From a virus, in the IMG/VR virus record IMGVR_UViG_3300009093_000106, positions 1 through 29,591 of that record: a DNA stretch of 29,591 bases; one strand, 5' to 3'. Below are positions 4,771-29,312 of this stretch, piece by piece. Every line of letters begins with the position of its first letter. Position 1 is the stretch's first letter. The notes beneath the pieces are model-generated. The model was not told the origin of the DNA. It did not search any database and was given only the letters and a program-made list of their open reading frames with translations. A program made the translations under genes and the position numbers.

Positions 4771-4825
4771 CGTTCAGAGTACATAAGTCTTGACCGTGAG
4801 GCAAGCGATACTCAGGAGTTCGATT

Positions 4826-7090
4826 ATGCTCGTTCGCACTTCCCCCCGCACCGGCACTCAACGCCGCAATGCTTCATTTTCCCCCAGAGATTGGGTAGCA
4901 GTTGACACAGAAACGACAGGCCTGCATACCTGGAAGGACGCCCGTCCGTTCTCCGTAGGGATGTGTGATCAGGACGGCAATACCTGGTACTGTGAATGGC
5001 AAGTTGATCCACAGACCCGCATCGTCACGCCCAAACAGGAGGATCTAGAATTCCTCTGTTCCGTCGTCTCCAATCCCGACATTCCGAAGGTGTACCATAA
5101 CGCCCGGTTTGACATCCGGATGCTGCAATCTCTGGGAGTGGAACAGAAAGGTTGGTTCGATGACACCCTCATTGCGGCTCGGGTATGCTACACGGTTGAG
5201 CAAGCGTACGGTTTGAAGTACCTTGCAAAGAAGTATGCCAACATCGGTACCGACGACGAAAAGCAGATGGACGATGCTATCAAGATATGCAGACGACGGG
5301 CTCAGGCGGCGAACCGACAGTACATAAAGTACAACCCCGAGTGCTCGGAAGACGAACTTCCTTACTGTCTGGGGGAAGACGCAGGAGGGGACGCATGGAT
5401 ACTCAGGAACATGCTGCACCCCTCTGACCCTGCATACTGGTATTGTGAGCAATACTGCCGTCGTGACTGCGAACGGACGGCAGTATTGCTCATGCTTTAC
5501 AAAAGTATCATGGCGCGGGAGGGGGAGTGCCGCATTACCTATATGCGGGAGATGGAACTCTGGCATACTGTCTGGGGGATGGAAGACCGGGGGATCGCCG
5601 TTTCCTTCGAAGAAATCGACAAGGAGATCAAAGTCTCCAAGAGACTGACGGCAGAAGCTCTTGAGATGATGAAGGCGCACCTGAAGGACGATCTAGGGTG
5701 GACGGAGGAGCAGGTTGAGGGCACCCCGAAGGAACGGTACCGGGAATTAGCAAAGATAGGCAGGAAGCCCGAAGTAGGGTTCAACCCGGCGTCTCCTCCG
5801 CAGATTGTCAAGATCATGTACGACGGGTACGGTTTTGACGTAGACCCGCAATATGGCCGATCTTCCAAGCTGTTAGCTCTCACTCCTCATATCTCGCATC
5901 CCTTTGTTCGGAACCTCATCCTCTATCGTATGCACTACCAACGAACCAATACCTTCCTCGGGGTATACCGGGATCTCAGTACCCCGGATACCATTATTCC
6001 GGGCGGGAAAGCCCTGCACCCTGGCTTCGATCAGGTTGGGACGGCCACCGGACGTTTTAGTTGCAGAGATCCAAACATGCAGCAAGTGAGTACAATCGCA
6101 TCTTCGAAGATCCATGCTTTTCAAGCTGTAACCGTTAGGAGCGTGTTCGGTCCTCGGAAGGGGTATCGGATGTACACCGTAGACTACTCCCAACAGGAAG
6201 TCCGTATCTTCGCAGACCTTTCCCGTTCTCCGTTCCTCCTCGGGGTTATGGAGAGAGGGGAAGATATCTACGAAGCAACCTCCAACCGTATCTGGGGAGG
6301 GCGCAACAACCCCCATGCCCTGAATATGGCAGCCATCTCTCTGGAGCTATTCGAAGAGTGGCCGGTTGAAGGGGCATACTACGATAAGGTAGTCCAAACC
6401 TGGCAGCATCTCGGATGGAAGAGAGGAGACAGTCTACGGCGCGGGGCAAAGCAGCGGCAACTCGAACTTGCTAACCAATGGCTATCCGAGTTCAACTACG
6501 ACATCGTTGCAGCCGAACGAACCCTCGGGAAGAAGAAAACCCGGTCACGGGCTAAGACCTCGTTCCTTGCCAAGATCTACGGCGGGGGTGCTGAGAAGAT
6601 GGCCGGGTACATGGGTGGAACGGTCGAGGAAACCCGTACATGGCTGAACCAGTTCGACCAAGCCATGCCCGACATAAAGATCTTCATGCAGACGATGATC
6701 CGAATGGCCCGGTCTCAGGGATACGTGGTGAACCCGTATGGCCGGAAACTACGGGCGGAAAGCGGGTTCGAATATCGGTCGGTCAACCACCTCATCCAGA
6801 GCACCGGTGCGGATATGATCAAGTCGTCGATGGTCATGATCGATGAGTTCTTCCAGAGGGAGGATGTTCGCGGTCACCTTCTCCTGACAATACATGATGA
6901 ACTGGTGTATGAGATCCCCCGGCGGTTTGATGCGCCATGGATACACGAGGAGATCAAGCGTATCCTGGAGGATGTACCTATCGACATTACAGCGGCGATC
7001 CCCTATGGGCCGAAGATAACGGTCAAGATGCTCGCTGAGTTCAAGAAGGTGGAGAAGCAGTGGGACGTAGCGGAGGCAATTGAGGTATGA
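4826..7090 (+). CDS. family A DNA polymerase with 3'-5' exonuclease
   Basis: 754 aa. The ATG at 4826 has AGGAG 7 nt upstream; the frame also opens at a TTG (4790) lacking a ribosome site. The exonuclease domain shows Asp27/Glu29 (V-D-T-E-T), Asn92...Asp96 (H-N-A-R-F-D) and Tyr210-x3-Asp214. The polymerase domain shows T-G-R-F-S with P-N-M-Q-Q near 408-420, motif A Asp453 (V-D-Y-S-Q-Q-E-V-R), motif B (R-A-K...Y-G, about 575-586) and motif C His690-Asp691-Glu692. There is no 5'-nuclease domain, as is usual for phage enzymes. Motif A to the motif B lysine is 124 residues against about 53 in E. coli Pol I, so the fingers carry an insertion of about 70 residues. It is the replicative polymerase by context. 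Confidence 0.95.
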   Translation: MLVRTSPRTGTQRRNASFSPRDWVAVDTETTGLHTWKDARPFSVGMCDQDGNTWYCEWQVDPQTRIVTPKQEDLEFLCSVVSNPDIPKVYHNARFDIRMLQSLGVEQKGWFDDTLIAARVCYTVEQAYGLKYLAKKYANIGTDDEKQMDDAIKICRRRAQAANRQYIKYNPECSEDELPYCLGEDAGGDAWILRNMLHPSDPAYWYCEQYCRRDCERTAVLLMLYKSIMAREGECRITYMREMELWHTVWGMEDRGIAVSFEEIDKEIKVSKRLTAEALEMMKAHLKDDLGWTEEQVEGTPKERYRELAKIGRKPEVGFNPASPPQIVKIMYDGYGFDVDPQYGRSSKLLALTPHISHPFVRNLILYRMHYQRTNTFLGVYRDLSTPDTIIPGGKALHPGFDQVGTATGRFSCRDPNMQQVSTIASSKIHAFQAVTVRSVFGPRKGYRMYTVDYSQQEVRIFADLSRSPFLLGVMERGEDIYEATSNRIWGGRNNPHALNMAAISLELFEEWPVEGAYYDKVVQTWQHLGWKRGDSLRRGAKQRQLELANQWLSEFNYDIVAAERTLGKKKTRSRAKTSFLAKIYGGGAEKMAGYMGGTVEETRTWLNQFDQAMPDIKIFMQTMIRMARSQGYVVNPYGRKLRAESGFEYRSVNHLIQSTGADMIKSSMVMIDEFFQREDVRGHLLLTIHDELVYEIPRRFDAPWIHEEIKRILEDVPIDITAAIPYGPKITVKMLAEFKKVEKQWDVAEAIEV

Positions 7091-8423: not shown

Positions 8424-8807
8424 ATGGATGGCAGCGTCACGGATCAGGGTCTGATCCTGGTTGAGCGCGAAGAGATGGCAAAAGCAGTCAGAGAAGCTTG
8501 GAGTATGGCGGTAAAAGAGGTGATCAAGGACCCACCTGCGTCGTGGAAGAAGAGTTTCGAGGAACTGCCGGAACATATGAAGGAGACAGAACGACGGCAG
8601 GGTGACCTTCTTCTGGGGGCGATTAATGATATATTAGTAGAGATAGGGGTAGCAGATTTATTAGTTGCGTGTCTGATACCCCCTCGGAAGAGCGGTGGAA
8701 TTGTTGATACCGTCTTATGGTCTCTGCAAATCTGCGGGGCAATAAACGAATACAGGAAGAAGCAATATTGCAAGAGCATCCGGAGAGGGGGTACGAATGC
8801 CTCCTAG
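8424..8807 (+). CDS. hypothetical protein
   Basis: 127 aa. AAGGAG at 8408-8413 lies 10 nt before the ATG. The N-terminal half is a charged helix (E-R-E-E-M-A-K-A-V-R-E-A-W). The middle (about 67-85) is hydrophobic but contains Asp and Glu and is too weak for a confident membrane segment. The C-terminal end is basic. The last codons overlap the primase start by 11 bases, so the two are probably coupled. No family recognised. Confidence 0.65.
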   Translation: MDGSVTDQGLILVEREEMAKAVREAWSMAVKEVIKDPPASWKKSFEELPEHMKETERRQGDLLLGAINDILVEIGVADLLVACLIPPRKSGGIVDTVLWSLQICGAINEYRKKQYCKSIRRGGTNAS

Positions 8808-11163
8808 AGTAGCGGCAGACGTTCCCGAGAAGATGCGCCCGTTTCTCGACCTGGGGTTCATTAAGCATCACGAAACCGGGAACGAGTGGGTTGGAGATTG
8901 TTTGCTCTGTGGAGGGATCAATAAGCTTTACATCAATACGGAAACAGGGCAATGGTCCTGCAAAAGGGGTAGATGTTCCGAAGAGGGGAATACCTATGGT
9001 TTTCTCCAGAAATGGTACTGGAACCTGACGCAGGACACCTCTACCCTGGCTTTTCGTTTCGCAGGGGCAGACGACCGGGATTGGTTAGAATTTGCGGCAG
9101 ACAGAAGGGTACCGGTCTCGGTGTTGAGATCTACCGGTATCGTCTACGACCATGAGATGGAGCGTTGGGTATTACCGACCTATAATTCGGCGGGATCGAT
9201 GGTGGCCTTTCAGTTCTACGATTGGAGACCGCATAACGGAGTACGAGGTGGCCGTAGGTTGCTGAATTTGGCGGGTATGCCGTCCGGTCTCTGGGGAGCT
9301 GAACTTCTGGGGCGTATTGCACCCGGTGGTAGCTTTGTGAGCGAGGGTGGAGTTGTATGGGTATGCGAGGGCGCATGGGACGGCATGGCAACCAGAGAAG
9401 CCCTGAGAGTGGCAGATCGCGCATGGGATATCGTCGTAGCCGTTCCTGGCAACAATGCCTTCAAGGATACATGGGCGGAACTCTTCGATGGGCTGGATGT
9501 TATCCTGGCTTACGATCATGATCACGCAGGCCGGGTAGGGGTCAAGAGGGCGTTCGCACAGATCGGAGCGATAGCCAGCAGGTTACGGTGGGTGGATTGG
9601 CCGGAAGAAACCCCCGAAGGCTTCGATATGCGGGATTTCTTCTCCTCGGGCGGCGATATCGACATGCTCCAGGAAGTTATCCGACCCTTCACCGTAGGCC
9701 GGACGGGAGAACCCCTTCTCACCGAGAACGAAGTCCTTACTGCCAGAGATCGCGGCAGAGGTCCGCAGGGTCAGGGGGTGAATACGGGGCAGGGTCAGGG
9801 GACAGGAACGGGAGCGGTTAGCAGGAACGGACGGCGACCCCCTCCACCCCCTTCTCCTAATCCCGACGCAAACCCCTCTAATCGCCCATCTCTGGGGTTT
9901 CCGGGCATTGGGGAGGGAACGGGCCGACCCTCGTTTGAGGAGGTGTTGGAAGTGTACCGTCGATACCTGGAGATGGATGAGAACATGACCCTGGCTTTGC
10001 GTGTTCTGTTCGCTACCGTGCTAACGAACGATCTTCCTGGCGAACCTCTCTGGGTACATGTTGTCGGTCCTCCCGGCAGTGGGAAGACTGCACTGCTAGA
10101 AAGCCTGTCGAAGTGTGAGCAGGTATACCTTGCTTCTCGAATGTCGGGGACCTCTCTTGTGTCGGGGTTCAAGGCACCGCATGACCCTTCCCTGATACCC
10201 AAACTCATAGGGAAGGTGTTCGTTCTCAAGGACTTCACCGAGGTACTGGGGATGAACAAGCCTGAGAAGGATAATATCTACTCTACCCTGCGCGGGGCGT
10301 ACGACGGTTCTGTTTACAGGGAGTTCGGAAACGGTGTCATCCGTTCGTACGAAGGACGGTTTAGCATGTTGACGGGCGTTACCCATGCGATATACCTGGA
10401 GAGTGATGCTACCCTTGGGGACCGTTTTCTTCGATTTCATCTTATGAGAGGGGTGGGAGCAGAGGTGGATATGACGGTACAGCGTGCCCTGGCTCACTTC
10501 GGAGGAGAGCAGGGTATCGTAGAGATGGCGGAAATAGCGCGAGACTTCCTCCGTGTGCGGGTAGACATAGAGAATGTAGCAGAGTTGCCACGGTGGGTCA
10601 TCGGTCGGCTGATACATCTTGCTCAGGTGGTCGCCATGCTCCGGGGAAAAGTACACCGAGATCTCCACGACAGCATCATAGCACGCCCGGATCACGAGAT
10701 AGGAACCCGGCTTGCGATACAGTTTGCTAAGTTGCTGAGGGGTCTAGCCCTTGTCCGGCTCGGGGAAGACGATAACGACAGAAATCGCGAGCGTAGCGAG
10801 CAGGCATCTTCGGTGGGTGGGGTAGCAATCATAGGGAGAGAGGATTACGATGTCGTTGTTCGGGTAGCCCTGGATACCTGCGTCGGGTACAACTTAGACG
10901 TAGCCCGATGGGTGTACCAGCATCCCGAGTGTACGGTAGCGGAGATTGCAGATGGGTGCGATATGTCGCGGTCCTCCATACGAGAACGGTTGGACGATAT
11001 GTTCGAACTCGGTATCCTCAAGAAGAAACGGGAAGAAACTTCCGGAGAAACAGGACGCGGTGCGCCTGTGATACGGTGGTCTCTGTCGAACAAATTCCGC
11101 CGTCATTGGAAGGGTTCCGGGTTCGGGGTTCGGCTCGTAAATTCGTCTGGAGAACGGTCCTGA
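8797..11163 (+). CDS. primase-helicase fusion (zinc finger, Toprim, AAA+-like NTPase)
   Basis: 788 aa. Order of parts: a primase zinc finger with Cys35, Cys38, Cys55, Cys60; a Toprim fold with Glu191 and Asp195 (C-E-G-A-W-D) and Asp240/Asp242 (Y-D-H-D-H-A-G); a Gly/Gln/Pro-rich linker (about 315-370); an NTPase with Walker A G-P-P-G-S-G-K-T (424-431) and a Walker B-like V-F-V-L-K-D ending at Asp479; and a C-terminal winged helix (about 720-780, V-A-E-I-A...S-R-S-S-I-R-E-R-L). It would lay RNA primers and unwind DNA at the fork. The winged helix may bind origin DNA; a repeat-rich region follows directly. The motor looks AAA+-like rather than RecA/DnaB-like, which is a judgement from motifs only. 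Confidence 0.9.
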   Translation: MPPRVAADVPEKMRPFLDLGFIKHHETGNEWVGDCLLCGGINKLYINTETGQWSCKRGRCSEEGNTYGFLQKWYWNLTQDTSTLAFRFAGADDRDWLEFAADRRVPVSVLRSTGIVYDHEMERWVLPTYNSAGSMVAFQFYDWRPHNGVRGGRRLLNLAGMPSGLWGAELLGRIAPGGSFVSEGGVVWVCEGAWDGMATREALRVADRAWDIVVAVPGNNAFKDTWAELFDGLDVILAYDHDHAGRVGVKRAFAQIGAIASRLRWVDWPEETPEGFDMRDFFSSGGDIDMLQEVIRPFTVGRTGEPLLTENEVLTARDRGRGPQGQGVNTGQGQGTGTGAVSRNGRRPPPPPSPNPDANPSNRPSLGFPGIGEGTGRPSFEEVLEVYRRYLEMDENMTLALRVLFATVLTNDLPGEPLWVHVVGPPGSGKTALLESLSKCEQVYLASRMSGTSLVSGFKAPHDPSLIPKLIGKVFVLKDFTEVLGMNKPEKDNIYSTLRGAYDGSVYREFGNGVIRSYEGRFSMLTGVTHAIYLESDATLGDRFLRFHLMRGVGAEVDMTVQRALAHFGGEQGIVEMAEIARDFLRVRVDIENVAELPRWVIGRLIHLAQVVAMLRGKVHRDLHDSIIARPDHEIGTRLAIQFAKLLRGLALVRLGEDDNDRNRERSEQASSVGGVAIIGREDYDVVVRVALDTCVGYNLDVARWVYQHPECTVAEIADGCDMSRSSIRERLDDMFELGILKKKREETSGETGRGAPVIRWSLSNKFRRHWKGSGFGVRLVNSSGERS

Positions 11164-11242
11164 ATTTTCCCTTGTTTGGGTATCGGATTTCTCGGGATTG
11201 GGTACAGATCGAAAATCCGGTAATTAGTCCAATTTTGAATAT

Positions 11243-11338
11243 GGAGTTGAGTCGGGAGTTGGGTTAGGAGTTGGAATTGATAGATATGGAGTTGAGTCAT
11301 GATCGTTTTTGGATCGGTCTGGATCGGGGTTGGAGTTG
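11243..11338 (+). repeat. GGAGTTG iteron-like repeats
   Basis: GGAGTTG occurs at 11243-11249, 11255-11261, 11267-11273, 11288-11294 and 11332-11338, with another at 11772-11778. The first three are spaced exactly 12 bp apart. Two copies sit in a longer shared ATATGGAGTTGAGTC context (11239-11253 is ATATGGAGTTGAGTC; 11285-11299 repeats it). Such helically irregular but clustered repeats could be initiator-binding sites. Confidence 0.7.
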
Positions 11339-11457
11339 TTTTTAGGGCGTTTTCTCTGGGAGTAAAACCTCCGATTTACGGGCGATTTGACCCAGAATAA
11401 AAACGGTGGAAAAAAGAAAGGCAATATGTATGGATGACGTTTTTTCTCTTTTTTGCC

Positions 11458-11550
11458 TTTAACTTGACTTTAACTTGATTAAATTCAACAATTAAGAAGT
11501 ATAGTGTAGAAAAGTTATAAGTTATAAATTATGAAAAGTTAGAAGTCATT
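11458..11550 (+). repeat. short direct repeats in the AT-rich core
   Basis: CTTTAACTTGA is repeated in tandem (11458-11468 and 11469-11479). AGTTATA is repeated in tandem (11514-11520 and 11521-11527). AAAAGTTA occurs at 11511-11518 and 11535-11542. AGAAGTCA occurs at 11542-11549 and again at 11582-11589. This is a DNA-unwinding-element-like composition lying between the inverted-repeat arms. Confidence 0.65.
11476..11506 (+). promoter_or_regulatory. weak promoter-like pair in the AT-rich core
   Basis: TTGATT (11476-11481) and TATAGT (11501-11506) resemble -35 and -10 boxes but are 19 bp apart, 2 bp longer than ideal. In such A/T-rich DNA matches arise easily. If used, it would transcribe through arm C and arm D towards the gene at 11828. 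Confidence 0.25.
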
Positions 11551-11827
11551 AACTCATAACCGAACAAAAGGCAAAAACTCAGAAGTCAAGAAAAACAAAA
11601 ACGCGTCGGACGTATACATATTGCCTTTGTTTTTTCTGCCGTTTTTAATCGGGGGTTTGGATGGGTGAAAAATGAGGGCAGAACATGGGTGGGTTCTGAG
11701 GAGGGTTCTGGAGAGGGGTTTTCGGTCGAGAGTTAGAGCTCTTGATGCGCTCGTACTAGCCTATAGGGTGCGGAGTTGGATGGAGGGATAGAAGGATGTT
11801 GGAATGTTGGATGGAGAGGGGTAAAAG

Positions 11828-12571
11828 ATGCCGACGCCTATACCGGATGTAATTCATGGGCGGAATAGACTGGGGATGCCGATCTGTTCTTATGATCTAG
11901 GGGACGGTAGAAAATGCGGGCAGACGATCCTACGTAGGAATGGACGGTGCCATCAACATGGTGGGAGTAAGAAGGGGGTGACCGCTAAGCAGGTAAAAGA
12001 TCGTCGGGCGGCGATAGAAGCAGCTCTGCCGGACGACCTGAGAGAGGTATTCATTCGTTCGGTTGACGACCCGGCGCAATTGTCGCTAAAGTTAGAGATC
12101 GGGCTGATGGATGCTAATCTCCACCGGGTGATGAAGATGATGGAGGGGATGCCGACCCCGGAAGGGTGGCGCAAGCTACAGATGCTCGGGATACGGCTAG
12201 ACCGTGCATTAGAGGGTCGCAATTGGGCGGCAGCGAAACGGTGTTGCGAGGACCTGAAGACTCTCTCAGAGATCGGGAACACGAACACCGAGATATGGCA
12301 AGAGATGCAGACTTCGATGGTGCAACGGGCGAAGATAGGAGAAGCCGAGACCCGACGCCTGGTGGCATCCAAAACTGTCGTGACGGTTGCAGAGGCGGAA
12401 CTTATCGTCGTTACCCTGTTCCGCATCATGCAGCAGGAGATCGCAGCCGAAGCCCTGAAACGGGTAAAGGAGCGATTTGTGGAGGCGATGCACGTCAACG
12501 AGCCTAGATCCCTGGAAGCCGGGTCGGACGACGACGACATCGAGGAGGGAGAACTCAGCAACGATGAGTAG
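11828..12571 (+). CDS. HGG zinc-motif phage protein, candidate small terminase
   Basis: 247 aa; GGAGAGGGG (11813-11821) precedes the ATG. The N terminus carries Cys20, Cys30, Cys41 and His44 in the C-H-Q-H-G-G arrangement found at the start of many phage packaging-region proteins. The rest is helical, with the conserved run L-P-D-D-L, D-D-P-A-Q-L-S-L-K-L-E-I, and R-A-K-I-G-E-A-E-T-R-R-L near residue 170. The C terminus is acidic (D-D-D-D-I-E-E-G-E). Proteins with this layout often sit where a small terminase is expected; that role is inferred. It lies about 10 kb before the large terminase. It is the first gene after the non-coding region. Confidence 0.65.
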   Translation: MPTPIPDVIHGRNRLGMPICSYDLGDGRKCGQTILRRNGRCHQHGGSKKGVTAKQVKDRRAAIEAALPDDLREVFIRSVDDPAQLSLKLEIGLMDANLHRVMKMMEGMPTPEGWRKLQMLGIRLDRALEGRNWAAAKRCCEDLKTLSEIGNTNTEIWQEMQTSMVQRAKIGEAETRRLVASKTVVTVAEAELIVVTLFRIMQQEIAAEALKRVKERFVEAMHVNEPRSLEAGSDDDDIEEGELSNDE

Positions 12572-16554: not shown

Positions 16555-17174
16555 TACCAGGGATTGACGTCAGTCACTACCAGGGGACGATCGACTGGGC
16601 AAAGGTTGCAGCAGCAGGGATTAAGTTCGCCTACCTGAAAGCGACCGAAGGGGTCGACGCAACTGATGAGTTCTATATCAGGAACAGGGCAGCAGCCCGA
16701 AGTCACGGTATCTTGACGGGGAGCTACCACTTCTACCATTACGACCAGGCTTGGGGACCGCAGGCAACCCACTTTGTCGGGATCGTCGGGAACTTTAAGG
16801 ACGAACTACCGCCAATGCTGGACCTGGAACAGGACAAGTTCCGGAACCATAAGTTTACCCTGGCAACAGCAGATGCAACCCGGCAGACTTTAGCCTGGCT
16901 AGATACTCTCCAGAAATCGAGCCACAAGGTACCGGGTGTATATTGTGACCCTAATTTCCGTGAAACGTTCCTACGGGACGCAGGATACCGGCAATACCTG
17001 TTATGGGAAGCATCTCTCTCTGCTGTTGCACCTGTCTCGGTCGCCCCATGGACCCGGATAAGCTTCTGGCAGTACCGATGGAACGGAACCGTCCCTGGAA
17101 TAGCGGGGCATGGGTGCGATCTCGACCGGTTCATGGGTACCATGGATAGCTTGCAGAAACTGGCGAAAGGGTAA
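16551..17174 (+). CDS. GH25 lysozyme (endolysin)
   Basis: 207 aa, the size of a lone GH25 catalytic domain. The ATG overlaps the HNH stop (ATGA), with GGAGAG (16533-16538) upstream. It cuts the MurNAc-GlcNAc bond of peptidoglycan. Seen: G-I-D-V-S-H-Y-Q-G at the start (Asp6), K-A-T-E-G (Glu33), M-L-D-L-E (Asp91/Glu93, the usual catalytic pair) and the closing W-Q-Y...D-L-D-R-F (Asp190, Asp192). No signal peptide or cell-wall-binding domain is visible, so it would need a holin to reach the wall. Confidence 0.9.
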   Translation: MIPGIDVSHYQGTIDWAKVAAAGIKFAYLKATEGVDATDEFYIRNRAAARSHGILTGSYHFYHYDQAWGPQATHFVGIVGNFKDELPPMLDLEQDKFRNHKFTLATADATRQTLAWLDTLQKSSHKVPGVYCDPNFRETFLRDAGYRQYLLWEASLSAVAPVSVAPWTRISFWQYRWNGTVPGIAGHGCDLDRFMGTMDSLQKLAKG

Positions 17175-17179
17175 ACCGC

Positions 17180-18595
17180 GTGAAGACCGTCCTGCTTGTC
17201 CTTAACCCAAGTCGGTATACTCAACTCCAGCCAGAGATTAACGGGTGGACATTTGATCGTGCAGTGGAGGGGTGGAACGTATCCCTTCTCCAGACAACCC
17301 GGACAAACGGTTACGATCTACGTGCAGATCTCGTCATTCAGTACGGCAAGCAACCCTTTGATCATGTGTTCTTCCTCGGGAATACCCCGACGATCTGGGT
17401 TATGCTGAATTTGGACGGGCATGGCTGGCACCTTATGCCTGCACGCTCATTCCTCGTTAACTCAAACATTGCGATCGATAATGCACGGCAACCCGGTACC
17501 GACACCTGTAATCTCTCTTCGATGGGAGCGTTCAGCCGTCCGTATGCTCATGTAGGTCAGCTCAATTTTGACGGCATGGCCGGGTTTACCGATGACCAGA
17601 TTACTGATCAGTATAGACAGTGGTTCGTACGTCGCCATGATATCAGCGTCAACGGGTTCGCGGCATTCCCGCCGATCAATCTCCTGGATAACCACTTCGG
17701 GCTGAGTTTCGGTCCTGCCTGCGTTCAGGAGTTTGCGAAGTACCCGAAGTCGATGAATATGTACATGCCGACCCTGGGACCGGACGGTTACGATGGTCAG
17801 AGAGCTCTGCAACTTCCTGCTCTCACCTTCGGCATTTTTACCGGAGGGGAGAATTACGGCGACGGTCAATTCCTCTGGTATTACGGGAAACGCGACGAGC
17901 AGATAGCGACGCCGTCTCAGGCTGCTATCTGGCATTGCTACGGCTCGCATACGGGCGAGACCTACAGCGCGGGCAGTTACCTCGTCGCTGCACTCGTCAA
18001 TCGACCAGGCGCGGGTTTCAAGAGCTGCAAGACGGTCGCATCAGTCTTCAATTTCTCAGGTAGTTTTGCTTTTCACATCCTCCTCAACGGTGGCACAGGA
18101 GGAGAGGCTGCAAGTGAAACAGAGGCAACGAGCGGGTGGCCTGCCGACTACTGGAATGGGGATCCTACTCTCACCTTCGATACCGCCACCCTTGCACGAC
18201 TTGCAGCTAATGAAACGGAGGCACAAGTGACAGAAACACAGTTTGACGCAGCGGTAGCGAACCTACAACAGCAGATCACCGACTTGACCAATAAGGTACT
18301 TCCTCTGCTTGCAGGGGGAACAGGCGGTGGAACGGGCGGAACCGGAGGCGGCAACACCGATACAACCGTAGTCATCATAAAAGCGATCTACGAACGGGTA
18401 GACGGTGGGGGTTCGGTGGATGTGACGGCGCAGGTCCAAGCCCTGGTGAACTCGGGGGTACCCTGGAATGTACACCCCGGTCTGGCAGACTTCGCAGTTG
18501 GGTTTGAGAAACGGCTGCAGGTTGATTATACCGTTGGAGGGGTCGCCCGACCCCATGCAACCTTCAGCCAATATCAGCAGGTAATCTGCAAGTAA
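17180..18595 (+). CDS. gingipain-like (C25-fold) protein with C-terminal lectin-like domain
   Basis: 471 aa, starting at GTG 17180 with only a weak ribosome site. Residues 1-75 match the C25 N-terminal pattern (L-V-L-N-P, E-G-W-N-V, D-H-V-F-F-L-G). Residues 120-155 give the H-V-G-Q-L-N-F...Y-R-Q-W-F...H-D pattern. Residues 232-330 give F-L-W-Y-Y-G, W-H-C-Y-G-S-H and the closing W-N-G-D-P-T-L. These follow the order seen in C25-like proteins. The catalytic pair is not clear: G-H-G (80-82) and His252-Cys253 are candidates. A coiled coil (about 350-377) and Gly/Thr linker lead to a C-terminal domain (about 398-470; V-D-V-T and G-F-E-K-R-L-Q-V-D-Y). Probably virion-associated. Confidence 0.55.
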   Translation: MKTVLLVLNPSRYTQLQPEINGWTFDRAVEGWNVSLLQTTRTNGYDLRADLVIQYGKQPFDHVFFLGNTPTIWVMLNLDGHGWHLMPARSFLVNSNIAIDNARQPGTDTCNLSSMGAFSRPYAHVGQLNFDGMAGFTDDQITDQYRQWFVRRHDISVNGFAAFPPINLLDNHFGLSFGPACVQEFAKYPKSMNMYMPTLGPDGYDGQRALQLPALTFGIFTGGENYGDGQFLWYYGKRDEQIATPSQAAIWHCYGSHTGETYSAGSYLVAALVNRPGAGFKSCKTVASVFNFSGSFAFHILLNGGTGGEAASETEATSGWPADYWNGDPTLTFDTATLARLAANETEAQVTETQFDAAVANLQQQITDLTNKVLPLLAGGTGGGTGGTGGGNTDTTVVIIKAIYERVDGGGSVDVTAQVQALVNSGVPWNVHPGLADFAVGFEKRLQVDYTVGGVARPHATFSQYQQVICK

Positions 18596-18613
18596 CGGAT
18601 TGAGAGGTCCAAA

Positions 18614-19051
18614 GTGCCGTTCACGCTAACGCAGCTTGCAAACGAGATTAACGCCGACCCGACCGGCCTTGGATATGCGGCTTTTACTAATGCCGGGAAC
18701 GACCAGGGGGTCGTTACCCTGATTAATGCTGTCGGTGTAAGTGGATCTTTTCAGGTACCGAGGGAGCCCATCCCCACCGCTATGTTCATCGCTAACATGG
18801 ATCCTACTGAGTTTGCGGCGTTGACAAACGTGCAACTGCTCCGATTGCAGATCATACTTTCCGGCGGAACCGTGGACATCAACGGGGCAAACACTCGGGC
18901 TAGCCTGTTGGCTATATTTCCGTCCAACGGTGTCACCAAGACCAACATCGCAGCCCTTCTGAACCGACAGGGAAGCCGTGCAGAAGTCCTATGGGGGATT
19001 GGTACCGTAGTTACGACGGATAACGTCTCCAAGGCATTGAGGGGAGCGTAG
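18614..19051 (+). CDS. conserved phage protein of unknown function
   Basis: 145 aa from GTG 18614, 6 nt after GAGAGG. The pattern is one I know from many siphophage genomes: L-A-N-E-I-N-A-D-P-x-G-x-G-Y-A near the start, a central P-x-A-M-F-I-A-N-M-D-P-x-E-F-A-A-L, then I-F-P-S-N and a closing S-R-A-E-V-L-W-G-I-G-T-V-V-T. Its role is not established; relatives lie among structural genes. It is followed after one base by the next gene. Confidence 0.75.
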   Translation: MPFTLTQLANEINADPTGLGYAAFTNAGNDQGVVTLINAVGVSGSFQVPREPIPTAMFIANMDPTEFAALTNVQLLRLQIILSGGTVDINGANTRASLLAIFPSNGVTKTNIAALLNRQGSRAEVLWGIGTVVTTDNVSKALRGA

Positions 19052-19052
19052 G

Positions 19053-19523
19053 ATGGCAACTAACGAACTATGGGGTGCGCTCGGTACTGAAACGGTGCTG
19101 ATAAACAATACCAATTTCAGTAACCTGCTGAACAATGCCCTCGTACTCTCTGGAGACTATAACAACGTTCAAGGTGGTGGCGGGGGAGGTGGCGACACCC
19201 TTTGCCGACTACGGGCTATCCTCACAATGGCGGTGGGAGCCTCGGCCAATACCGGGTTCTCTGTCTGGTTCCTGAAGTCTACAGACGGAGGAACAACCTG
19301 GGAGCGGGGTGGAACTGGATTTACTCCCCAGAGATTGCCGGACGTGGTTTTTCCTGCACCGACTGACACCACGCAAACGGAAGTCAGTAGAGATGTACTT
19401 TGTCCGGCAGGTCACTTCAAAGTCTTGATTAAGAATGACGGTACCGGTCAAGCGACAAAGACAGATGTGACTTCAGCCGGGTCACAGCTTTCGATCATTC
19501 CGTTCACAAGGCAGATGGTATGA
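19053..19523 (+). CDS. conserved phage virion-type protein
   Basis: 156 aa, one base after the preceding stop. A run of seven Gly near residue 41-47 is followed by beta-rich sequence with S-T-D-G-G-T-T-W-E and a later P-A-G-H-F-K-V-L-I-K-N, a layout common among small phage structural proteins. No enzymatic motif. The stop overlaps the LamG gene start (ATGA). Probably a minor virion component; inferred. Confidence 0.65.
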   Translation: MATNELWGALGTETVLINNTNFSNLLNNALVLSGDYNNVQGGGGGGGDTLCRLRAILTMAVGASANTGFSVWFLKSTDGGTTWERGGTGFTPQRLPDVVFPAPTDTTQTEVSRDVLCPAGHFKVLIKNDGTGQATKTDVTSAGSQLSIIPFTRQMV

Positions 19524-20383
19524 TTGATACCCTGGGGTACGATACTTTTCTTCCGATCCATCTTGGAAATCCGATTAATCGGCGGCACCCGCTTAATGCA
19601 GGGAGACAGGCTTGGTGGCTTACCCTTACCGGTTTGGATGGAGGTAAGTTTTTCTATGACCTGATGGACCTATGGACGGGTACTCTTACGAGCATGGGGA
19701 CGGGTAGCGGTTGGCAGGGTACCCCGCGAAAAGGAGGGTTTGGACAGCTAAAATTCGACGGTACTAGCAGTTATGTAGCAACAACCGGGTTATTCAGCTA
19801 CGCACAGATGACTTGGAAAGCCTGGGTCAGACCGGATGACTTCTCCCTGTCCAATGCTATAAACCGCAGAATTGTTCACTCTTCCGACAACTCGGGTAAT
19901 AACGAAACAAACCTTGTTTTAGGCAGTACCAATAGCAACGTTACATGGTACACATTTACATCTAGCAGTCAGTTTAGCGTAACCTCTGCTCCCTCTTCTT
20001 TAGCTATTGGAAACTGGTACCATATCTGCGGTACAAGGGATGGCTCGAACGCTTTCTTGTACATTAATGGCAAGCAGGCAGCAACCGGTGCGGATGCGGG
20101 CGGCGTTGCAGTGCCGACTTCTGCAAGTTTCTTCACTATCGGGAAGGTTCAGTTCTTTGGCGGAGGGTTCTTATCGGGAGCGTTAGACGATGTAAGTGTG
20201 TGGAACCGTGCACTCTCTGCAACAGAAGTCAAAGCTGATTATGATCTGAGCCTGCTTCTATATCCGGATGTGCTTAACCGGGTAGAGTCGCATGAATTGA
20301 ACGCGCCGAACGTCTTTACTTTTCAGGATTTATCTGTCAGTATGCAACCTCGTAGGGATACTCCGGTCCCTATTCCTTACTAG
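19520..20383 (+). CDS. LamG / concanavalin-like lectin domain protein
   Basis: 287 aa. Residues about 75-240 show the LamG pattern: L-K-F-D-G-T-S-S-Y-V, a M-T-W-K-A-W-V-R-P strand, W-Y-H-I-C-G-T-R-D-G, L-Y-I-N-G-K and the closing F-L-S-G-A-L-D-D-V-S-V-W-N-R-A-L-S. This jelly-roll domain usually binds carbohydrate, so host-surface or capsid-exterior binding is likely. The ATGA overlap couples it to the preceding gene. Confidence 0.85.
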   Translation: MIDTLGYDTFLPIHLGNPINRRHPLNAGRQAWWLTLTGLDGGKFFYDLMDLWTGTLTSMGTGSGWQGTPRKGGFGQLKFDGTSSYVATTGLFSYAQMTWKAWVRPDDFSLSNAINRRIVHSSDNSGNNETNLVLGSTNSNVTWYTFTSSSQFSVTSAPSSLAIGNWYHICGTRDGSNAFLYINGKQAATGADAGGVAVPTSASFFTIGKVQFFGGGFLSGALDDVSVWNRALSATEVKADYDLSLLLYPDVLNRVESHELNAPNVFTFQDLSVSMQPRRDTPVPIPY

Positions 20384-20398
20384 AGAAAGGTTAAAACC

Positions 20399-20872
20399 AT
20401 GGGCCGTGCGTATTCCGTAAATGGAAACTGTATCAACACAGCGTCGAGCACCCTTCCAATCGGGTGTCTAATCGGAGCTACGACCGTTCGTCCCCGTATC
20501 CAGGATGTTGTACTGGGTTCGGATGCTTCTCCTGCTGACAACGCTTGCAAGGTAGCCTTCCAGAGGCAGACTTCTGCCGGTACATGGGCGGGTGCTGGAG
20601 GGGCGGCGATCACCCCGCAGGCAATTGACCCTGGTGACCCGGCATCCCTCTGCACTGCAAACCAGGGGGTAGCGTCGGTAGGACCGACCCTGACCGCAAG
20701 TGCGTTCCTACTGCAAATACCGTTCAACCAGAGGGCGTCGTTCCGGTGGGTATCTCAGCCGGGTAAAGATCTCGTTATTCCGGCGACCGCCAACAACGGC
20801 ATCTCGCTCGTCCCCCTCGTGGTCGGCGGTTCCGCATTCAACACCGTGTTCTCATTTGAGTTCGAGGAATAA
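20399..20872 (+). CDS. phage virion-type protein of unknown function
   Basis: 157 aa; AAAGG (20386-20390) is 8 nt before the ATG. The sequence is beta-rich and low in charge, with several Thr/Ala/Gly runs and four Cys (about 11, 23, 50, 85). R-A-S-F-R-W-V near residue 113 and a closing F-S-F-E-F-E-E suggest a jelly-roll or Ig-like fold. It resembles small phage surface proteins, but no family can be named. Confidence 0.6.
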   Translation: MGRAYSVNGNCINTASSTLPIGCLIGATTVRPRIQDVVLGSDASPADNACKVAFQRQTSAGTWAGAGGAAITPQAIDPGDPASLCTANQGVASVGPTLTASAFLLQIPFNQRASFRWVSQPGKDLVIPATANNGISLVPLVVGGSAFNTVFSFEFEE

Positions 20873-20904
20873 TCCGGGTACCATACCCCGGAAAGGAGAT
20901 ACAG

Positions 20905-21135
20905 ATGCCAGAGAAAGATAACAGACCGAAGTGTGAGCGATGCGACACTCGACAGGACGCCCTGCATGTTGCACCGGACAGTGGGCCGGTTGTGATCAAC
21001 AACCAGATCGAACACGTCCAAGTCGCGGTGTGCGATAAGTGCTACGCCGAAGCATTCCGGAAGACATACCCGGACGCCGAAATACCGGAGCAGTTCGCTC
21101 ATCTGGATACGGCGAAAGCAGGGACGGTCAAGTAA
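20905..21135 (+). CDS. small zinc-ribbon protein
   Basis: 76 aa; AAGGAGAT is about 7 nt before the ATG. Cys10-x2-Cys13 and Cys43-x2-Cys46 form a textbook zinc ribbon around a short beta core. The C-terminal third is an acidic helix. The next gene, also a zinc-cluster protein, starts directly at the following base. The role is unknown; protein or nucleic-acid binding is likely. Confidence 0.65.
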   Translation: MPEKDNRPKCERCDTRQDALHVAPDSGPVVINNQIEHVQVAVCDKCYAEAFRKTYPDAEIPEQFAHLDTAKAGTVK

Positions 21136-21438
21136 ATGAGCAGAGAACCGGTCATACTCCATCCTGGGATGCCGGATTTCTACGACGGCACAAAATGGGA
21201 GCGGAAACCTCACGGCACAATGCTGATAAATGGGGTGGAAGTCGCCCATACCCTGCAATGCCCGCATTGTAATGCCCATTTCATCTCCAGAAAAGGGTCG
21301 GGTCATCGCCGCACCTACTGCATGCTCTGTAACGCAGTAACGTGCGGCCACCCGGATTGCGACCGTTGTATTCCATGGGAGAAGAAAATGGAACTCATGG
21401 AACGCGGGTGGTCCCTCGAAAGAATACTGGCAAGCTAA
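21136..21438 (+). CDS. zinc-cluster phage protein
   Basis: 100 aa, beginning immediately after the previous stop. Cys42, Cys45, Cys62, Cys65, Cys70, Cys75 and Cys78 plus nearby His residues could hold two zincs. The stretch C-P-H-C...G-S-G-H-R-R...C-M-L-C and T-C-G-H-P-D-C-D-R-C-I-P-W-E is a pattern I recognise from phage structural regions, where such proteins lie next to terminase or tail genes. Function unknown. The next ATG follows directly. Confidence 0.65.
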   Translation: MSREPVILHPGMPDFYDGTKWERKPHGTMLINGVEVAHTLQCPHCNAHFISRKGSGHRRTYCMLCNAVTCGHPDCDRCIPWEKKMELMERGWSLERILAS

Positions 21439-22476
21439 ATGCAACAGTCAACGTGGCAGTATCAAAAACTAGCAGAACCGATAACGGAGATCTTCCCCGT
21501 CCCTACGTTGGATCGTTGGGTGGGGTTTGACGATGTACCGCCACCTCCGAAAAGGGTTCTGACGACCGCGATACAGTCAACGATGGCATTCCAAGAACCC
21601 CTAGTACCCCCCACCCCTCCGGTGCAGCAGTATCTCCAACCTACGGTACCGAAAAGGGATAACCGGAGGGACGGGTTCCGGTACGATTGGTTCGCAAACA
21701 CCACGCCTCCTCCGGCACCCCCGGTTCTCTCCTGGCAACCAGAGTTCCCGGATAGTGCACCGGTTCGAGTACGGGCTATTAATCTCAACGCAACGATCGA
21801 GCCTACCTGGTTCAAAGCATTCCCGGACCCGACAACTTTCACCTACTTCAACCTGACGACAGACGGGTACGAGCAGGGGGTCCGCAACAAAGCAGATACT
21901 CAGAGACGGACGCTTTCTCTGATTTCACCCCTCCTATACGGACAGGGTCCGGATCCGGTAACCTTTACCCCAATGCCGGATACCGAACTCTGGCAACCAA
22001 TTCGACGTGCGGTGTCGATGGCGACGTACCTACTGTATGGAAACGAACCGTATCAGCTAAGTTTTACCCCTCTACCGGATGTCGAAATCTGGCAGCCGGA
22101 TAAAACGGCTAGATCCCGACAGCACTTAGCCATGGGAACTCCTTCAGAGATCGATGTCCCGGTGTTCTCTCTGGTGAGTGCGGTTGTACCTCTTCCCCGG
22201 TTCCGCAGGGAATACCCTTCCGGTACTCTGGTTACCCCGACGACAAGTTTGGGGGTAATTGTTCCCCCTGTCTATCCAGACCGGGTGCTTCGAGTTCGTC
22301 CGACAAGTCTCTTTGAATTCAGCCTAGGGAGGGTAACCTCTGCTCCGACCGTTGCGCGCTTGATCTACGTAACCCGGTCTGGCGCAGGAGACTACATAAA
22401 GATTTCGGGTTCCGGTGACACGATACAAAGGCGGGGTTCCGGCGATATCATACGGAAGGGTGGAGGAGTAGCATGA
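21439..22476 (+). CDS. repetitive proline-rich virion-type protein
   Basis: 345 aa, starting right after the preceding stop without its own clear ribosome site. It consists of irregular repeats of about 35-45 residues built around F-x-P-x-P-D-x-x-x-W-Q-P (for example F-T-P-M-P-D-T-E-L-W-Q-P and F-T-P-L-P-D-V-E-I-W-Q-P). The C-terminal 30 residues hold three S-G-x-G-D-x-I type units. Such sequence suggests an elongated surface or connector protein. No enzymatic motif. It overlaps the terminase start (ATGA). Confidence 0.65.
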   Translation: MQQSTWQYQKLAEPITEIFPVPTLDRWVGFDDVPPPPKRVLTTAIQSTMAFQEPLVPPTPPVQQYLQPTVPKRDNRRDGFRYDWFANTTPPPAPPVLSWQPEFPDSAPVRVRAINLNATIEPTWFKAFPDPTTFTYFNLTTDGYEQGVRNKADTQRRTLSLISPLLYGQGPDPVTFTPMPDTELWQPIRRAVSMATYLLYGNEPYQLSFTPLPDVEIWQPDKTARSRQHLAMGTPSEIDVPVFSLVSAVVPLPRFRREYPSGTLVTPTTSLGVIVPPVYPDRVLRVRPTSLFEFSLGRVTSAPTVARLIYVTRSGAGDYIKISGSGDTIQRRGSGDIIRKGGGVA

Positions 22477-24086
22477 CGGTAGTCGCTTACCACAGTAATC
22501 GTCTGTCTTCTCAGACTTTGGATTTTCTGGAGGATATCTCCAGTAACCAACCAATGCGACCGAAACTCAACATCCCTCGGGAACTCACTCGGTGTTCGGT
22601 TGATGTGGTATACTTCGTTCGCCATTACTGCTATACCTTCGACCCGAGACTGCCTGAGAGCATTATCCCCTTTGACCCGTTCCCCCGGCAGGAGGAGTTC
22701 TTCCATTGGCTGGAGGAGAGTGACCGGTTGGAAGAAGGGGGTATCGTAGAGAAATCCAGGGATATGGGGGTAACCTGGTGCTGTTGCGCGTATGCTCTTT
22801 GGTGCTGGCTGTTCAAACGAGGGGATGCAACCGGGTTCGGTTCCCGAAAACTAGAACTTGTAGACAAACTCGGAGATCCGGATAGCATCTTCGAAAAGAT
22901 CCGGTTCATGCTTCGGTACCTCCCGGACTGGATGCGACCCCGAGGGTTCGGGGAACGGCACATGGGTTCTGGCAAAATCCTGAACCCTGAGAACGGTTCG
23001 ATAATCTCTGGAGAAGGCGGTGATCAAATTGGACGCGGTGGACGAAAGAGACGATATTTTGTCGATGAAAGTGCCTTCCTCGAACACCCAAAATTGGTTG
23101 ACGCTTCACTCTTCCAAAACACTAATGTCCGCATTGACGTTTCGACACCTAACGGTCCTGGCAACCCGTTTGCAACAAAGCGTAACTCAGGAGTCTGGAG
23201 AGTATTCAGGTTCCACTGGAGAGACGATCCCCGTAAGGATGACGCGTGGTACGAAGCCGTAAAACGGACGATGGACCCGGTGATCGTCGCACAGGAAGTG
23301 GATATTGACTTCAACGCATCGATCGAGGGTATCTGTATTCCGGGGATGTGGGTGCAGAGTGCTGTTGACTTCCTGTCTGATCCTCCGGGTCACCTGATCG
23401 CCGGGTACGACGTTGCAGACGAAGGGTCGAACCGGAATGTCATGGTCTTTCGGCGTGGTCCGAAAGTTATGGAAGTCGTATCCTGGGGACAGATGCTGAC
23501 AACGGAAAGCGCATACAAAGCAGCCGACGAAATGCGTAACCGCAGGGCGCATACCATGTATTACGACAACATCGGAGTGGGAACCGCGACGAAGGGTATC
23601 TACGATAGCATGGTACGAACCGATATGAACAACCATGTACGATCAACCCTGGGTTTCAACCCTGTTGGAGTAAACGGTGGCGGTCCCCCGAGTGAAGACC
23701 TGTGGCCGGATGGACGCACTTCGAAAGAGATGTTCTTTAACAAACGAGCGGAGATATGGTGGAAACTCCGACGGCGGTTCGAAAAGACACATGAATATGT
23801 GGAGAAAGGGATCGATCACCCGTTGGACGAATGCATCTCTATCCCCAACAACCCGGACTTAATTCGCGATCTCTCCCTTCCTCTTGTCTTTCGAACTGAC
23901 ACCGGGAAGATACAGATCGAAAGCAAAATCATGATGGCAAAACGAGGGGTAAAATCGCCCGACTTCGGAGACGGGTGCGCATATTCCTTCGCAGGGGATG
24001 CAGCCGCTGATTGGGCGGAATTTGCTGAACTCCTGAGAAATACCCCTCCCCCGGTTTCAGCATTTGCAGGAATGGAGATAGGCTAG
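22473..24086 (+). CDS. terL: terminase large subunit
   Basis: 537 aa. GGAGGAG precedes the ATG. The ATPase domain has an adenine-binding P-R-Q (71-73), a Walker A of the variant form K-S-R-D-M-G-V-T (94-101), Walker B Y-F-V-D-E (195-199) and the coupling motif S-T-P-N-G (224-228). The RNase H-like nuclease has Asp313 (A-G-Y-D-V-A), Asp365 (Y-Y-D-N-I-G-V-G) and Asp497/Asp500 (S-P-D-F-G-D-G). It packages DNA into the prohead and cuts it. The Walker A lacks the usual G-K-T ending, as in some terminases where the lysine lies earlier. The portal gene starts at the next base. Confidence 0.92.
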   Translation: MTVVAYHSNRLSSQTLDFLEDISSNQPMRPKLNIPRELTRCSVDVVYFVRHYCYTFDPRLPESIIPFDPFPRQEEFFHWLEESDRLEEGGIVEKSRDMGVTWCCCAYALWCWLFKRGDATGFGSRKLELVDKLGDPDSIFEKIRFMLRYLPDWMRPRGFGERHMGSGKILNPENGSIISGEGGDQIGRGGRKRRYFVDESAFLEHPKLVDASLFQNTNVRIDVSTPNGPGNPFATKRNSGVWRVFRFHWRDDPRKDDAWYEAVKRTMDPVIVAQEVDIDFNASIEGICIPGMWVQSAVDFLSDPPGHLIAGYDVADEGSNRNVMVFRRGPKVMEVVSWGQMLTTESAYKAADEMRNRRAHTMYYDNIGVGTATKGIYDSMVRTDMNNHVRSTLGFNPVGVNGGGPPSEDLWPDGRTSKEMFFNKRAEIWWKLRRRFEKTHEYVEKGIDHPLDECISIPNNPDLIRDLSLPLVFRTDTGKIQIESKIMMAKRGVKSPDFGDGCAYSFAGDAAADWAEFAELLRNTPPPVSAFAGMEIG

Positions 24087-25610
24087 ATGGCAGAAACAGC
24101 CCTTACCCCGTATGAAGCAATGAATGAAGCCCGAGGGATAGCATCCGGGCGTTATTCCCAGGCGACGGAAGACTACAGCATTCCGATTAATCCGACCGAA
24201 CTTCTGGAGGCTACCCTCGGGGCATATGACGGGGTATTCAAATCAACCTACCGTATTCCTCCGTTCAATCCAGACAACCTGATTGGGCGTCTCGGGTATG
24301 ACTTCATGGAAGACATGCTGAAGATGGCAGCGTGCCGTGCGGTTTTCAACCTCAAGCGATACACCGTCCTAAAGGATGGGTTCACCGTCAAACCGGCTGT
24401 TTCGGATGAAATGTCTTCGGATCACACCGAAAGTAAGTTCTACGCAGACGCTCTGACCTACTGCCTGAGTAATATCGTAGATGAGGAAGTCGATATGCCG
24501 CAGGATTTCGAAGCGGTCCTGTTCGATATGCAGATGGCGGCATGGTTGGGGTACGGGGCGGGAGAAATCCAATACCGTACGCTGGAGAACACAAACATCT
24601 CAGGGCTAGATGGACGGTTGGGATTTACTGGATTTTGGATAAAGACGAACAAGCAGATAGGGTTCGACATCGATGACCATACCCTAAACCCTAAACGGTT
24701 CATCTCCTTTACCCCGGACGGCGGGTACAACGGTGACATCCATCCCGAGAAAATCTGGCTATACACCCATGCGATGTCCGCCAACAACCCCACAGGCCAG
24801 GGGGACGCCCGAAGCGTATACAAGAATTACTTCGCTCTGGATGTACTGCAAAAGTTATGGGCGATTGCCTTGGAACGGTGGGGTGCACCCGTCTTCGTTG
24901 CATCTTACCCGCATGGGGATCCCACGGCGATGCAGAAAGCCGTGGATGCGATGAACCAGATACGGCAGGGGCAGGCTCCCATTATCCCCGACAACATCAA
25001 GTATGAGCTTGTTACCTGTCCGACAACCGTATTCGACGGGTTCCAGCGATCCGCAGATTGGCATGTACGGCAGATATCCTCCGCCATTCACTCTAACAAC
25101 CTCAGTACGGGGGAGGGGGAGCATGGCGCAACTTCAGCAGGTGCGGATGTACATCAGGATAGCGGTCAATCGGTGTATGATTTTCTCTCCCAGAGAATAT
25201 CCACCGGGTTCAATATGCAAGTCATCCGCCGTTGGATGCGGTACAATTGGGGTGTCAAATCCCTCCGTCTCATGCCCACCCTGGAACTCCGTAAAGCAGG
25301 AGAAGATCCGGCGATGATTACGGCCTTGAATAGCGTAATCAATACCTGTGTGGGTATAGGGAACATGCCCCCGACTTCAAAAGTAATTCGTGAAACCTTC
25401 AAGCTACCGCCGATTAGTGCGGATGAGCAGGATTTGCTTGAGCAGCAGAAGCAGGCGCAGGAAGAAGCAGAGCAACGGGCGATTGATGCGAAGCAGTCCG
25501 GGCAGGTAGCCGCAATGTCCGATCACGATATGGATGTCTGGATTAACCGTTTGACGACGGCAATCTTCAACCGGAATGAAATAGACCGGCGCGAAAGGAA
25601 AGCAGCGTGA
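24087..25610 (+). CDS. portal protein, DUF935 / Mu gp29-like
   Basis: 507 aa, starting directly after the terminase stop. The family signature is clear: Y-G-A-G-E-I-Q-Y (156-163) and a long helix with F-A-L-D-V-L-Q-K-L-W-A-I-A-L-E-R-W-G-A-P (249-268), followed by P-H-G-D and a helix ending I-I-P-D. Portal proteins form the dodecameric ring through which DNA enters and leaves the head. The C terminus is Gln/Glu-rich. A GTGA overlap joins it to the Mu-F-like gene. Confidence 0.88.
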   Translation: MAETALTPYEAMNEARGIASGRYSQATEDYSIPINPTELLEATLGAYDGVFKSTYRIPPFNPDNLIGRLGYDFMEDMLKMAACRAVFNLKRYTVLKDGFTVKPAVSDEMSSDHTESKFYADALTYCLSNIVDEEVDMPQDFEAVLFDMQMAAWLGYGAGEIQYRTLENTNISGLDGRLGFTGFWIKTNKQIGFDIDDHTLNPKRFISFTPDGGYNGDIHPEKIWLYTHAMSANNPTGQGDARSVYKNYFALDVLQKLWAIALERWGAPVFVASYPHGDPTAMQKAVDAMNQIRQGQAPIIPDNIKYELVTCPTTVFDGFQRSADWHVRQISSAIHSNNLSTGEGEHGATSAGADVHQDSGQSVYDFLSQRISTGFNMQVIRRWMRYNWGVKSLRLMPTLELRKAGEDPAMITALNSVINTCVGIGNMPPTSKVIRETFKLPPISADEQDLLEQQKQAQEEAEQRAIDAKQSGQVAAMSDHDMDVWINRLTTAIFNRNEIDRRERKAA

Positions 25611-26269
25611 TCCGTCCTGCCAAGACTAACAAAACTGACGGATTGGTGTTCGCAGCATTTCTCCTGTTGCAACAGAACCTACAGAAGGACATCATAAACG
25701 CGGTTGCACTGTATATCGGCAACATTGTTACCGAACGGGAACTCCGGAAGGGTCTGGAAGCCTCAATTCTAGGGGCGCATACACGCGCGGCGGGACTTGG
25801 GCGCATATTGGCGCAAAATGTCCCAGAATTGACCCTAGAGGGCAAAGATGAGGCATTTGGGCACCTGACTCTGGCAGACCAATCCGGTTACCTGCGCGGT
25901 TTGGCGGATGATGTGGTCACGGGCCGGTATACTACCCCAGAGAATTCGGTGGCACCTGCCCTGAAATCACGAGCATTGCTGTACGCCCGTCGTCTTCGGG
26001 GGACGGCAGACGAAGCCTGGGTCTCTGAATTCCCCGATGATACGCGGTTTCTCTGGCTGTTGGGGTATGGGGTGGAGCAGCATTGCGAAGTATGCCCGAT
26101 GTACGCAAGCAGATCGGTGATAGAACCGTACACAAAGCATGACCTTCCTCCTCCTCCGGGGTCTGGCAAAACCCCCTGCAAGGTGAATTGTGATTGTAGG
26201 TTACGGACGGTTGGCGGTAAATCGGGTTTTCCGTTCGAACCCGGTTCAAGTTTCGTGCTAAATCTTTGA
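25607..26269 (+). CDS. Mu-F-like minor head protein
   Basis: 220 aa from GTG 25607, overlapping the portal stop. A helical N-terminal half leads to a C-terminal cysteine-rich part: H-C-E-V-C (Cys160, Cys163), a P-P-P-P-G-S-G-K-T-P loop and C-K-V-N-C-D-C (Cys191, Cys195, Cys197), typical of Mu gpF-like head morphogenesis proteins. The P-G-S-G-K-T stretch resembles a P-loop but belongs to this loop. It likely joins the head near the portal. Confidence 0.8.
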   Translation: MIRPAKTNKTDGLVFAAFLLLQQNLQKDIINAVALYIGNIVTERELRKGLEASILGAHTRAAGLGRILAQNVPELTLEGKDEAFGHLTLADQSGYLRGLADDVVTGRYTTPENSVAPALKSRALLYARRLRGTADEAWVSEFPDDTRFLWLLGYGVEQHCEVCPMYASRSVIEPYTKHDLPPPPGSGKTPCKVNCDCRLRTVGGKSGFPFEPGSSFVLNL

Positions 26270-26293
26270 TGATCAGGAAAAGGAGGTAAATCT

Positions 26294-27733: not shown

Positions 27734-27736
27734 CCA

Positions 27737-28174: not shown

Positions 28175-28213
28175 GCCTGTCGGTTTTACTCCGCAGGAGA
28201 AAGGATAGACGAT

Positions 28214-29236: not shown

Positions 29237-29312
29237 CTATAACGACAGGCTGTAACCTTCTCCAGAGATCGGTGGGTACGATTTCTGGGGAAGATTACGG
29301 AGGAGATAACAA

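Follow-up and report, generated by a model that had tools for sequence, protein, structure and literature searches.

A nested four-site dyad between the primase-helicase and late genes of an IMG/VR virus record: a probable initiator-bound replication origin

Introduction

The origins of most uncultured phages are not revealed by sequence similarity. Several known systems can be compared with the locus considered here. The domain content of the alpha protein of P4, which unites primase, helicase and winged helix, has been described previously (PMC4234260). In pRN1, a large imperfect stem-loop located 3' of the gene for a primase-helicase with a winged helix is required for replication, and an origin of this kind has been proposed for BIP-1 (PMC4234260). 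In the Rep-Cch2 systems of SaPI and SCCmec, an iteron origin lies directly downstream of the gene for an initiator helicase that loads itself and binds the origin through its C-terminal domain, and binding in SCCmec needed direct repeats, not inverted ones (PMC7581432). In phage NrS-1, the polymerase NrSPol recognises the 8-nt motif TTTGGTTA, on which primer-free synthesis starts (PMC8718748), and the middle of the genome, where the recognition sequence is said to be present twice, has been regarded as a possible origin (PMC7102993).

Here we analysed a stretch of 29,591 bases (hereafter the window), which is a complete IMG/VR record, linear and probably a fragment of a genome. Judged by its architecture, a 264-bp element in this window is probably (at about 0.75) an initiator-bound replication origin at the junction of the early and late genes.

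Results

All the genes assigned in the window are carried by the + strand. The replication genes, encoding a 5'-nucleotidase-like protein, ThyX, a PolA-type polymerase and a primase-helicase, lie to the left of a 664-bp gap (11164-11827), the longest non-coding gap in the window's ORF list, and ORF 11828, a lysis gene (GH25), TerL and a Mu-type portal gene lie to the right of it. The order of primase-helicase, repeat array, ORF 11828, HTH-like protein, lysis, TerL and portal resembles that in the viral locus L007, which was the first clue: its TerL is 40% identical to that of the window, and an 800-aa PrimPol-helicase is encoded upstream of its array. The features are as follows.

4790..7090, + strand: PolA-type DNA polymerase, proposed elongation enzyme (profile matches)
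8797..11163, + strand: 788-aa primase-helicase with a C-terminal winged helix, proposed initiator (profiles and AF2 model)
11164..11390, no strand: left non-coding flank, G-rich on the + strand, skew 0.45
11391..11431, + strand: left arm of the outer 41-nt inverted repeat
11417..11424, + strand: octamer site 1 (AAAGGCAA)
11450..11460, + strand: left arm of the inner 11-bp dyad, not significant alone
11453..11460, - strand: octamer site 2
11461..11566, no strand: AT-rich core, proposed unwinding element (24% GC; AAGTTAT tandem repeat at 11512-11532)
11567..11574, + strand: octamer site 3
11567..11577, - strand: right arm of the inner 11-bp dyad
11614..11654, - strand: right arm of the outer 41-nt inverted repeat
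11621..11628, - strand: octamer site 4
11655..11827, no strand: right non-coding flank, G-rich on the + strand, skew 0.66
11828..12571, + strand: 247-aa HGG-motif protein occupying the place of terS (putative TerS, by gene order)

A contig 99.4% identical to the window across 18185-29591 reaches 7.5 kb further right and does not contain the region of interest; searches with the major capsid protein (MCP) and portal found this near-identical contig only. No integrase was detected among the window ORFs scanned with Pfam, which bears on an integrase/attP reading to the extent that an incomplete genome allows. At 1977-2086, within ORF 1635-2645, there is a 57-nt perfect tandem duplication that codes for an acidic repeat.

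The initial annotation had pointed to four copies of one octamer in alternating orientation, and exact AAAGGCAA was indeed found at 11417(+), 11453(-), 11567(+) and 11621(-), with one copy elsewhere in the record (26906; chance expectation 0.8). Within the whole record, the extended site AAAGGCAAWA is confined to the element, where it is found four times, with two sites on each side of the core that is the record's least stable DNA. The outer dyad, previously described as 23 bp with one mismatch, is real, but this length was too short and represents the inner portion of 41-nt arms, which are complementary at 36/41 positions, are separated by 182 nt and bound an element of 264 bp. Its score of 26 is twice the highest value (13) that 200 local dinucleotide shuffles reached in the significance check that had been proposed, and it is the best-scoring dyad of the 29.6-kb record. 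The second-best, at 5446-5492 within the polA coding sequence, is a perfect inverted repeat of 17 bp whose loop has 13 nt. As had been stated, the 11 bp of the inner dyad match exactly, but taken alone this dyad is within chance, being reached in 18/500 shuffles. Its unusual feature is that the octamer already present in the outer arm appears in it again: both orientations of that octamer appeared in 0/5000 shuffles (105/5000 for both orientations of any 8-mer from the arm). The two dyads are nearly concentric, as claimed, with centres at 11522.5 and 11513.5.

The AT-richness of the 106-bp core also held (24% GC versus 54%), as did its tandem repeats, an 11-mer repeated 2.4 times at 11453-11478 and a 7-mer repeated three times at 11512-11532. 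The 100-bp stretch with the lowest stability in the record (-107.7 kcal/mol) coincides in part with the core; the next such stretch elsewhere has -125.5. Both flanks are C-poor on the + strand, carry GGAGTTGG-type repeats and show the strongest G skew of all windows in the record; such G-rich flanks could favour R-loops. A G-quadruplex was considered and rejected, as the flanks, G-rich as they are, lie outside the top G4Hunter windows. A DnaA-dependent origin was rejected as well, TTWTNCACA being absent from the whole record. The GC-skew check that had been suggested gave no support: the sign is unchanged at the element, and the skew at 4-fold sites is 0.07 on the left and 0.12/0.10 on the right, a test that is weak when all genes lie on one strand and the genome is incomplete.

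The protein encoded by ORF 8797-11163 matches a DNA primase profile (3.5e-14) and Toprim_2, with the primase/TOPRIM part at the N-terminus. Its P-loop reads VGPPGSGKT, and the ATPase segment was assigned to no family by profile, with no match to D5_N or DUF5906 up to E 5. The C-terminus matches MarR_2/IclR winged-helix profiles. The AF2 model of residues 690-788, of moderate confidence, has the secondary structure order HHHEEH in a winged-helix topology, with pLDDT in the 80s in its core. Among PDB entries it is closest to MarR proteins, at a best E of 1.5e-3, which is no more than suggestive. The full-length AF2 model (pLDDT 34) was unusable. BLASTP against P4 alpha aligned the P-loop region only (E 0.09), and the search for homologues among viral contigs, genome contigs, phages and plasmids returned only a weak match of the TOPRIM region to Campylobacter plasmids.

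No close relative spanning the region was found, and therefore arm conservation gives no support either way. The 15-mer of the arm gave chance matches only in viral contigs (these loci were re-used as background), the pattern of arms with their spacing had no match in viral contigs, and the 23-nt arm core had none in 84,980 species genomes. The element itself was not matched in phages or plasmids and has no second copy in the record. Since these searches found no homologue of the element or of the primase-helicase, we tested the architecture instead.

The scan rule demanded an 8-mer present in at least four copies, arranged with dyad symmetry and with at least two copies on each side of a core of 40-300 bp whose GC content was at least 0.10 lower. 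Because the rule was fixed after the window and L007 had been seen, these two do not count as independent tests of it; the remaining loci, the isolates and P4 do. One match is present in the window; 0/60 global and 0/60 block shuffles contain any. In P4, which served as a positive control, the sole match at k=8 fell on the annotated crr, located 45 bp past the 3' end of the gene for the alpha primase-helicase, and at k=6 ori and crr ranked as the top two. In L007, nested dyads are built on ATACCCCGA with an AT-rich core between them. Among 75 loci with relatives of the L007 primase-helicase (L138 is L007 itself), arrays were located downstream of the gene in 9/75 and upstream in 2/75 (a near-identical pair), and 1/119 random viral loci had an array (Fisher test, 0.028 versus upstream and 0.001 versus random loci, the latter having been chosen by an AT-rich 15-mer and not being matched in composition). 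As L180, L182, L210 and L215 are near-identical, the downstream positives amount to about 6 independent cases. The strict rule detected no array at 66/75 of the class loci, nor in FZ14, which has a primase-helicase. The repeats vary by lineage (TCGGGGTA, TCGGGAGT, TTCGGTCA, TACCCCGT, TTATCCAC, TCACCAGC), and the downstream arrays follow unrelated primase-helicases, usually directly before terS. The isolates Acinetobacter 4316 and BPP-1 also carry arrays. The window shares the features of this class: dyad-symmetric copies of one short sequence flank an AT-rich core, and this core has the lowest stability in the region and lies between the primase-helicase and the late module.

Several of these arrays have characteristics of their own. 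In L203 (7448-7694), seven copies of TTATCCAC, which agrees with the DnaA box at 8/9 bases, are possibly host-DnaA-like sites; this array starts 146 bp past the primase-helicase match and stands directly before a TerS-like gene. L180, L182, L210 and L215 carry nested ATGACCGA/TGGGTCAT arrays with 41-47-nt dyads and an AT-rich core, about 80 bp upstream of a GP3-type small terminase gene. At L136:6608-6711 (BPP-1 26607-26710), inverted pairs of TTGCCTCG surround an AT-rich core. They lie about 470 bp 3' of the gene for the BPP-1 primase, close to the stem-loop proposed for BIP-1 (PMC4234260) but not identical with it.

The initial annotation had taken the position right after the primase gene as support for an origin. 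In the related loci the element is anchored directly before terS instead. In loci that have both an array and terS, no more than about 100 bp separates the end of the array from the start of terS, and this tie is tighter than that between the array and the primase gene. Moreover, the most AT-rich 100 bp per locus (6-14 kb; among L138-L215) was located 87-564 bp upstream of terS in 31/31 loci with an identified terS, a regularity absent from the 44 loci in which terS was not identified. It was this anchoring that first made a packaging-initiation site (cos or pac), bound by the small terminase encoded by ORF 11828, a serious rival.

ORF 11828 occupies the slot that terS has in L007, as this rival expects, and from this position in the gene order we infer that it encodes TerS. 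The identity is putative: its HGG_STG match scores 20.4 bits, under the cut-off of 29, its match to the terminase small subunit family phrog_10899 is very weak (E 0.5), and no further example of an HGG-motif protein acting as TerS was found. Six terminase relatives whose genomes have no annotated primase-helicase (F116, DC1, BcepIL02, Magia, IFTN9 and Vibrio 1.052) were all without an array (0/6), which argues against packaging; DC1 and BcepIL02 show a milder AT dip ahead of terS. Neither P4 crr nor the L213 array is adjacent to terS.

The comparison of NrS-1 with NrS-2 bears most directly on the choice between origin and packaging site. From the first base of terS rightwards (L218:17459, L222:3735) the two DNAs are 87% identical, and leftwards, in the stretch compared, they are unalignable, so that the start of homology coincides with the start of terS and splits the replication and packaging modules. 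Their terminases are 90% (TerS) and 95% (TerL) identical, yet NrS-1 alone has the array and, at this place, the PrimPol, and the homology begins to the right of the array. The NrS-1 array comprises 11 copies of TTACACTT at 17063-17376, begins 12 bp past the PrimPol stop codon and overlaps the small annotated ORF NRS1_29. The NrSPol motif TTTGGTTA has one exact copy in the NrS-1 genome, at 17198 within the array, whereas two copies were spoken of in PMC7102993. As the array occurs only where the PrimPol is, it appears to travel with the initiator, as expected of an origin. The window element adjoins the slot of terS, but in the class the array is inherited with the PrimPol. Mainly on the strength of this comparison, we consider a packaging site unlikely.

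Discussion

The reading of the element as an origin draws on the same architecture being found, in unrelated sequences, beside other primase-helicases, on its coincidence with crr in P4 and on the presence of the NrSPol motif in the NrS-1 array. It is also in line with the placement of origins 3' of primase-helicase genes in pRN1, as proposed in BIP-1, and in SaPI and SCCmec. The original proposal of an origin is thus supported indirectly, by architecture, and gains nothing from skew.

Quite unlikely, in our judgement, is that the region at the early/late junction serves instead to control the late genes, through a promoter and sites of the operator or activator type. The element does lie between replication and late genes of the same strand and is AT-rich, and one weak sigma-70-like match is present at 11464. 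However, such promoter-like matches occur at chance level (1 found versus 1.4 expected), a four-site dyad of 264 bp exceeds the usual size of an operator, and in the NrS-1/NrS-2 pair the array goes with the PrimPol. The two functions are compatible, as an origin could carry a promoter too.

The alternative of an RNA-forming element, raised together with the origin in the initial annotation, did not fare well. If the transcript of the + strand formed a structured RNA or a long hairpin for processing, this would account for the folding of that strand, far more stable than in shuffles (z -9.3; z -7.5 for the - strand), and for the 2/5 arm mismatches that become G-U pairs on the + strand only. However, the outer arms supply the whole fold signal and the inner 182 nt fold like shuffles (z -1.4), and both G-U mismatches would favour the + strand in about 1 of 4 cases by chance, which makes the strand bias of the arms weak. 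There was no Rfam family (best E 0.97, under the gathering score), and the class members are repeat arrays rather than conserved folds. We regard this explanation as very unlikely. A small MITE-like insertion is hardly credible: its 41-nt terminal inverted repeats, length of 264 bp and AT-richness in a 54% GC genome would suit, but no target-site duplication was clear on inspection, the record holds a single copy, the arm core was unmatched in the 84,980 species genomes and the element in phages and plasmids. The RNA, packaging and mobile-element readings are all weaker than that of an origin.

If the element is an origin, we infer that binding, melting, loading and the start of synthesis take place there. 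The C-terminal winged helix of the primase-helicase would bind the four AAAGGCAAWA sites, two per side, and oligomers would form on both near-symmetric arms. The 24% GC core between the arms would then melt, the helicase part would be loaded onto the exposed strands, the TOPRIM part would synthesise primers, and the PolA-type polymerase of the phage would elongate them.

The element would be an origin by the rule of the class, with repeats and an initiator that have no detectable homology to those of the class members. The class loci, P4 excepted, use PrimPols, and the initiator of the window is of the TOPRIM type, as in P4. We give even odds to the broader proposal that many phages with self-priming primase-helicases have, between the primase-helicase and terS, an origin recognisable from anatomy alone, with short repeats placed dyad-symmetrically about the most AT-rich DNA, which is swapped as a module together with the initiator while the terminase stays and whose sequence is lineage-specific; the window would represent a TOPRIM-based, independently evolved case with four sites in one palindrome with 41-nt arms. 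If this anatomical rule holds, origins could be predicted from contigs, the likely binding site of the initiator could be read from them, and small phage replicons could be built for testing. The NrS-1/NrS-2 pair offers a ready natural experiment.

Among the known systems, the origin of pRN1 (about 100 bp) has a 21-nt stem, no iterons and an archaeo-eukaryotic primase, whereas the window has a 264-bp dyad with four repeats and a TOPRIM primase. The SaPI/SCCmec systems differ in having no large nested dyad and a helicase of a different family. The NrS-1-type phages are similar to the window in that a repeat array with an AT-rich core lies between primase-helicase and terS in a comparable gene order. 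However, they possess a PrimPol (archaeo-eukaryotic) instead of a TOPRIM primase and 11 or more repeat copies, and their repeats, unlike those of the window, begin 12 bp past the primase stop.

The closest architectural match to the window primase-helicase is P4 alpha. Sequence similarity between the two is useful only at the P-loop, profiles did not place the window helicase in the P4 family (SF3/D5 type), the P4 octamer is TGTTCACC (type I), and crr is a 120-bp direct duplication whereas the window has one large dyad. At the same time, both proteins combine a TOPRIM primase, a P-loop helicase and a C-terminal winged helix in one chain of similar length (777 versus 788 aa), both loci have octamers in both orientations, crr lies directly 3' of its gene, and the same blind scan detects both.
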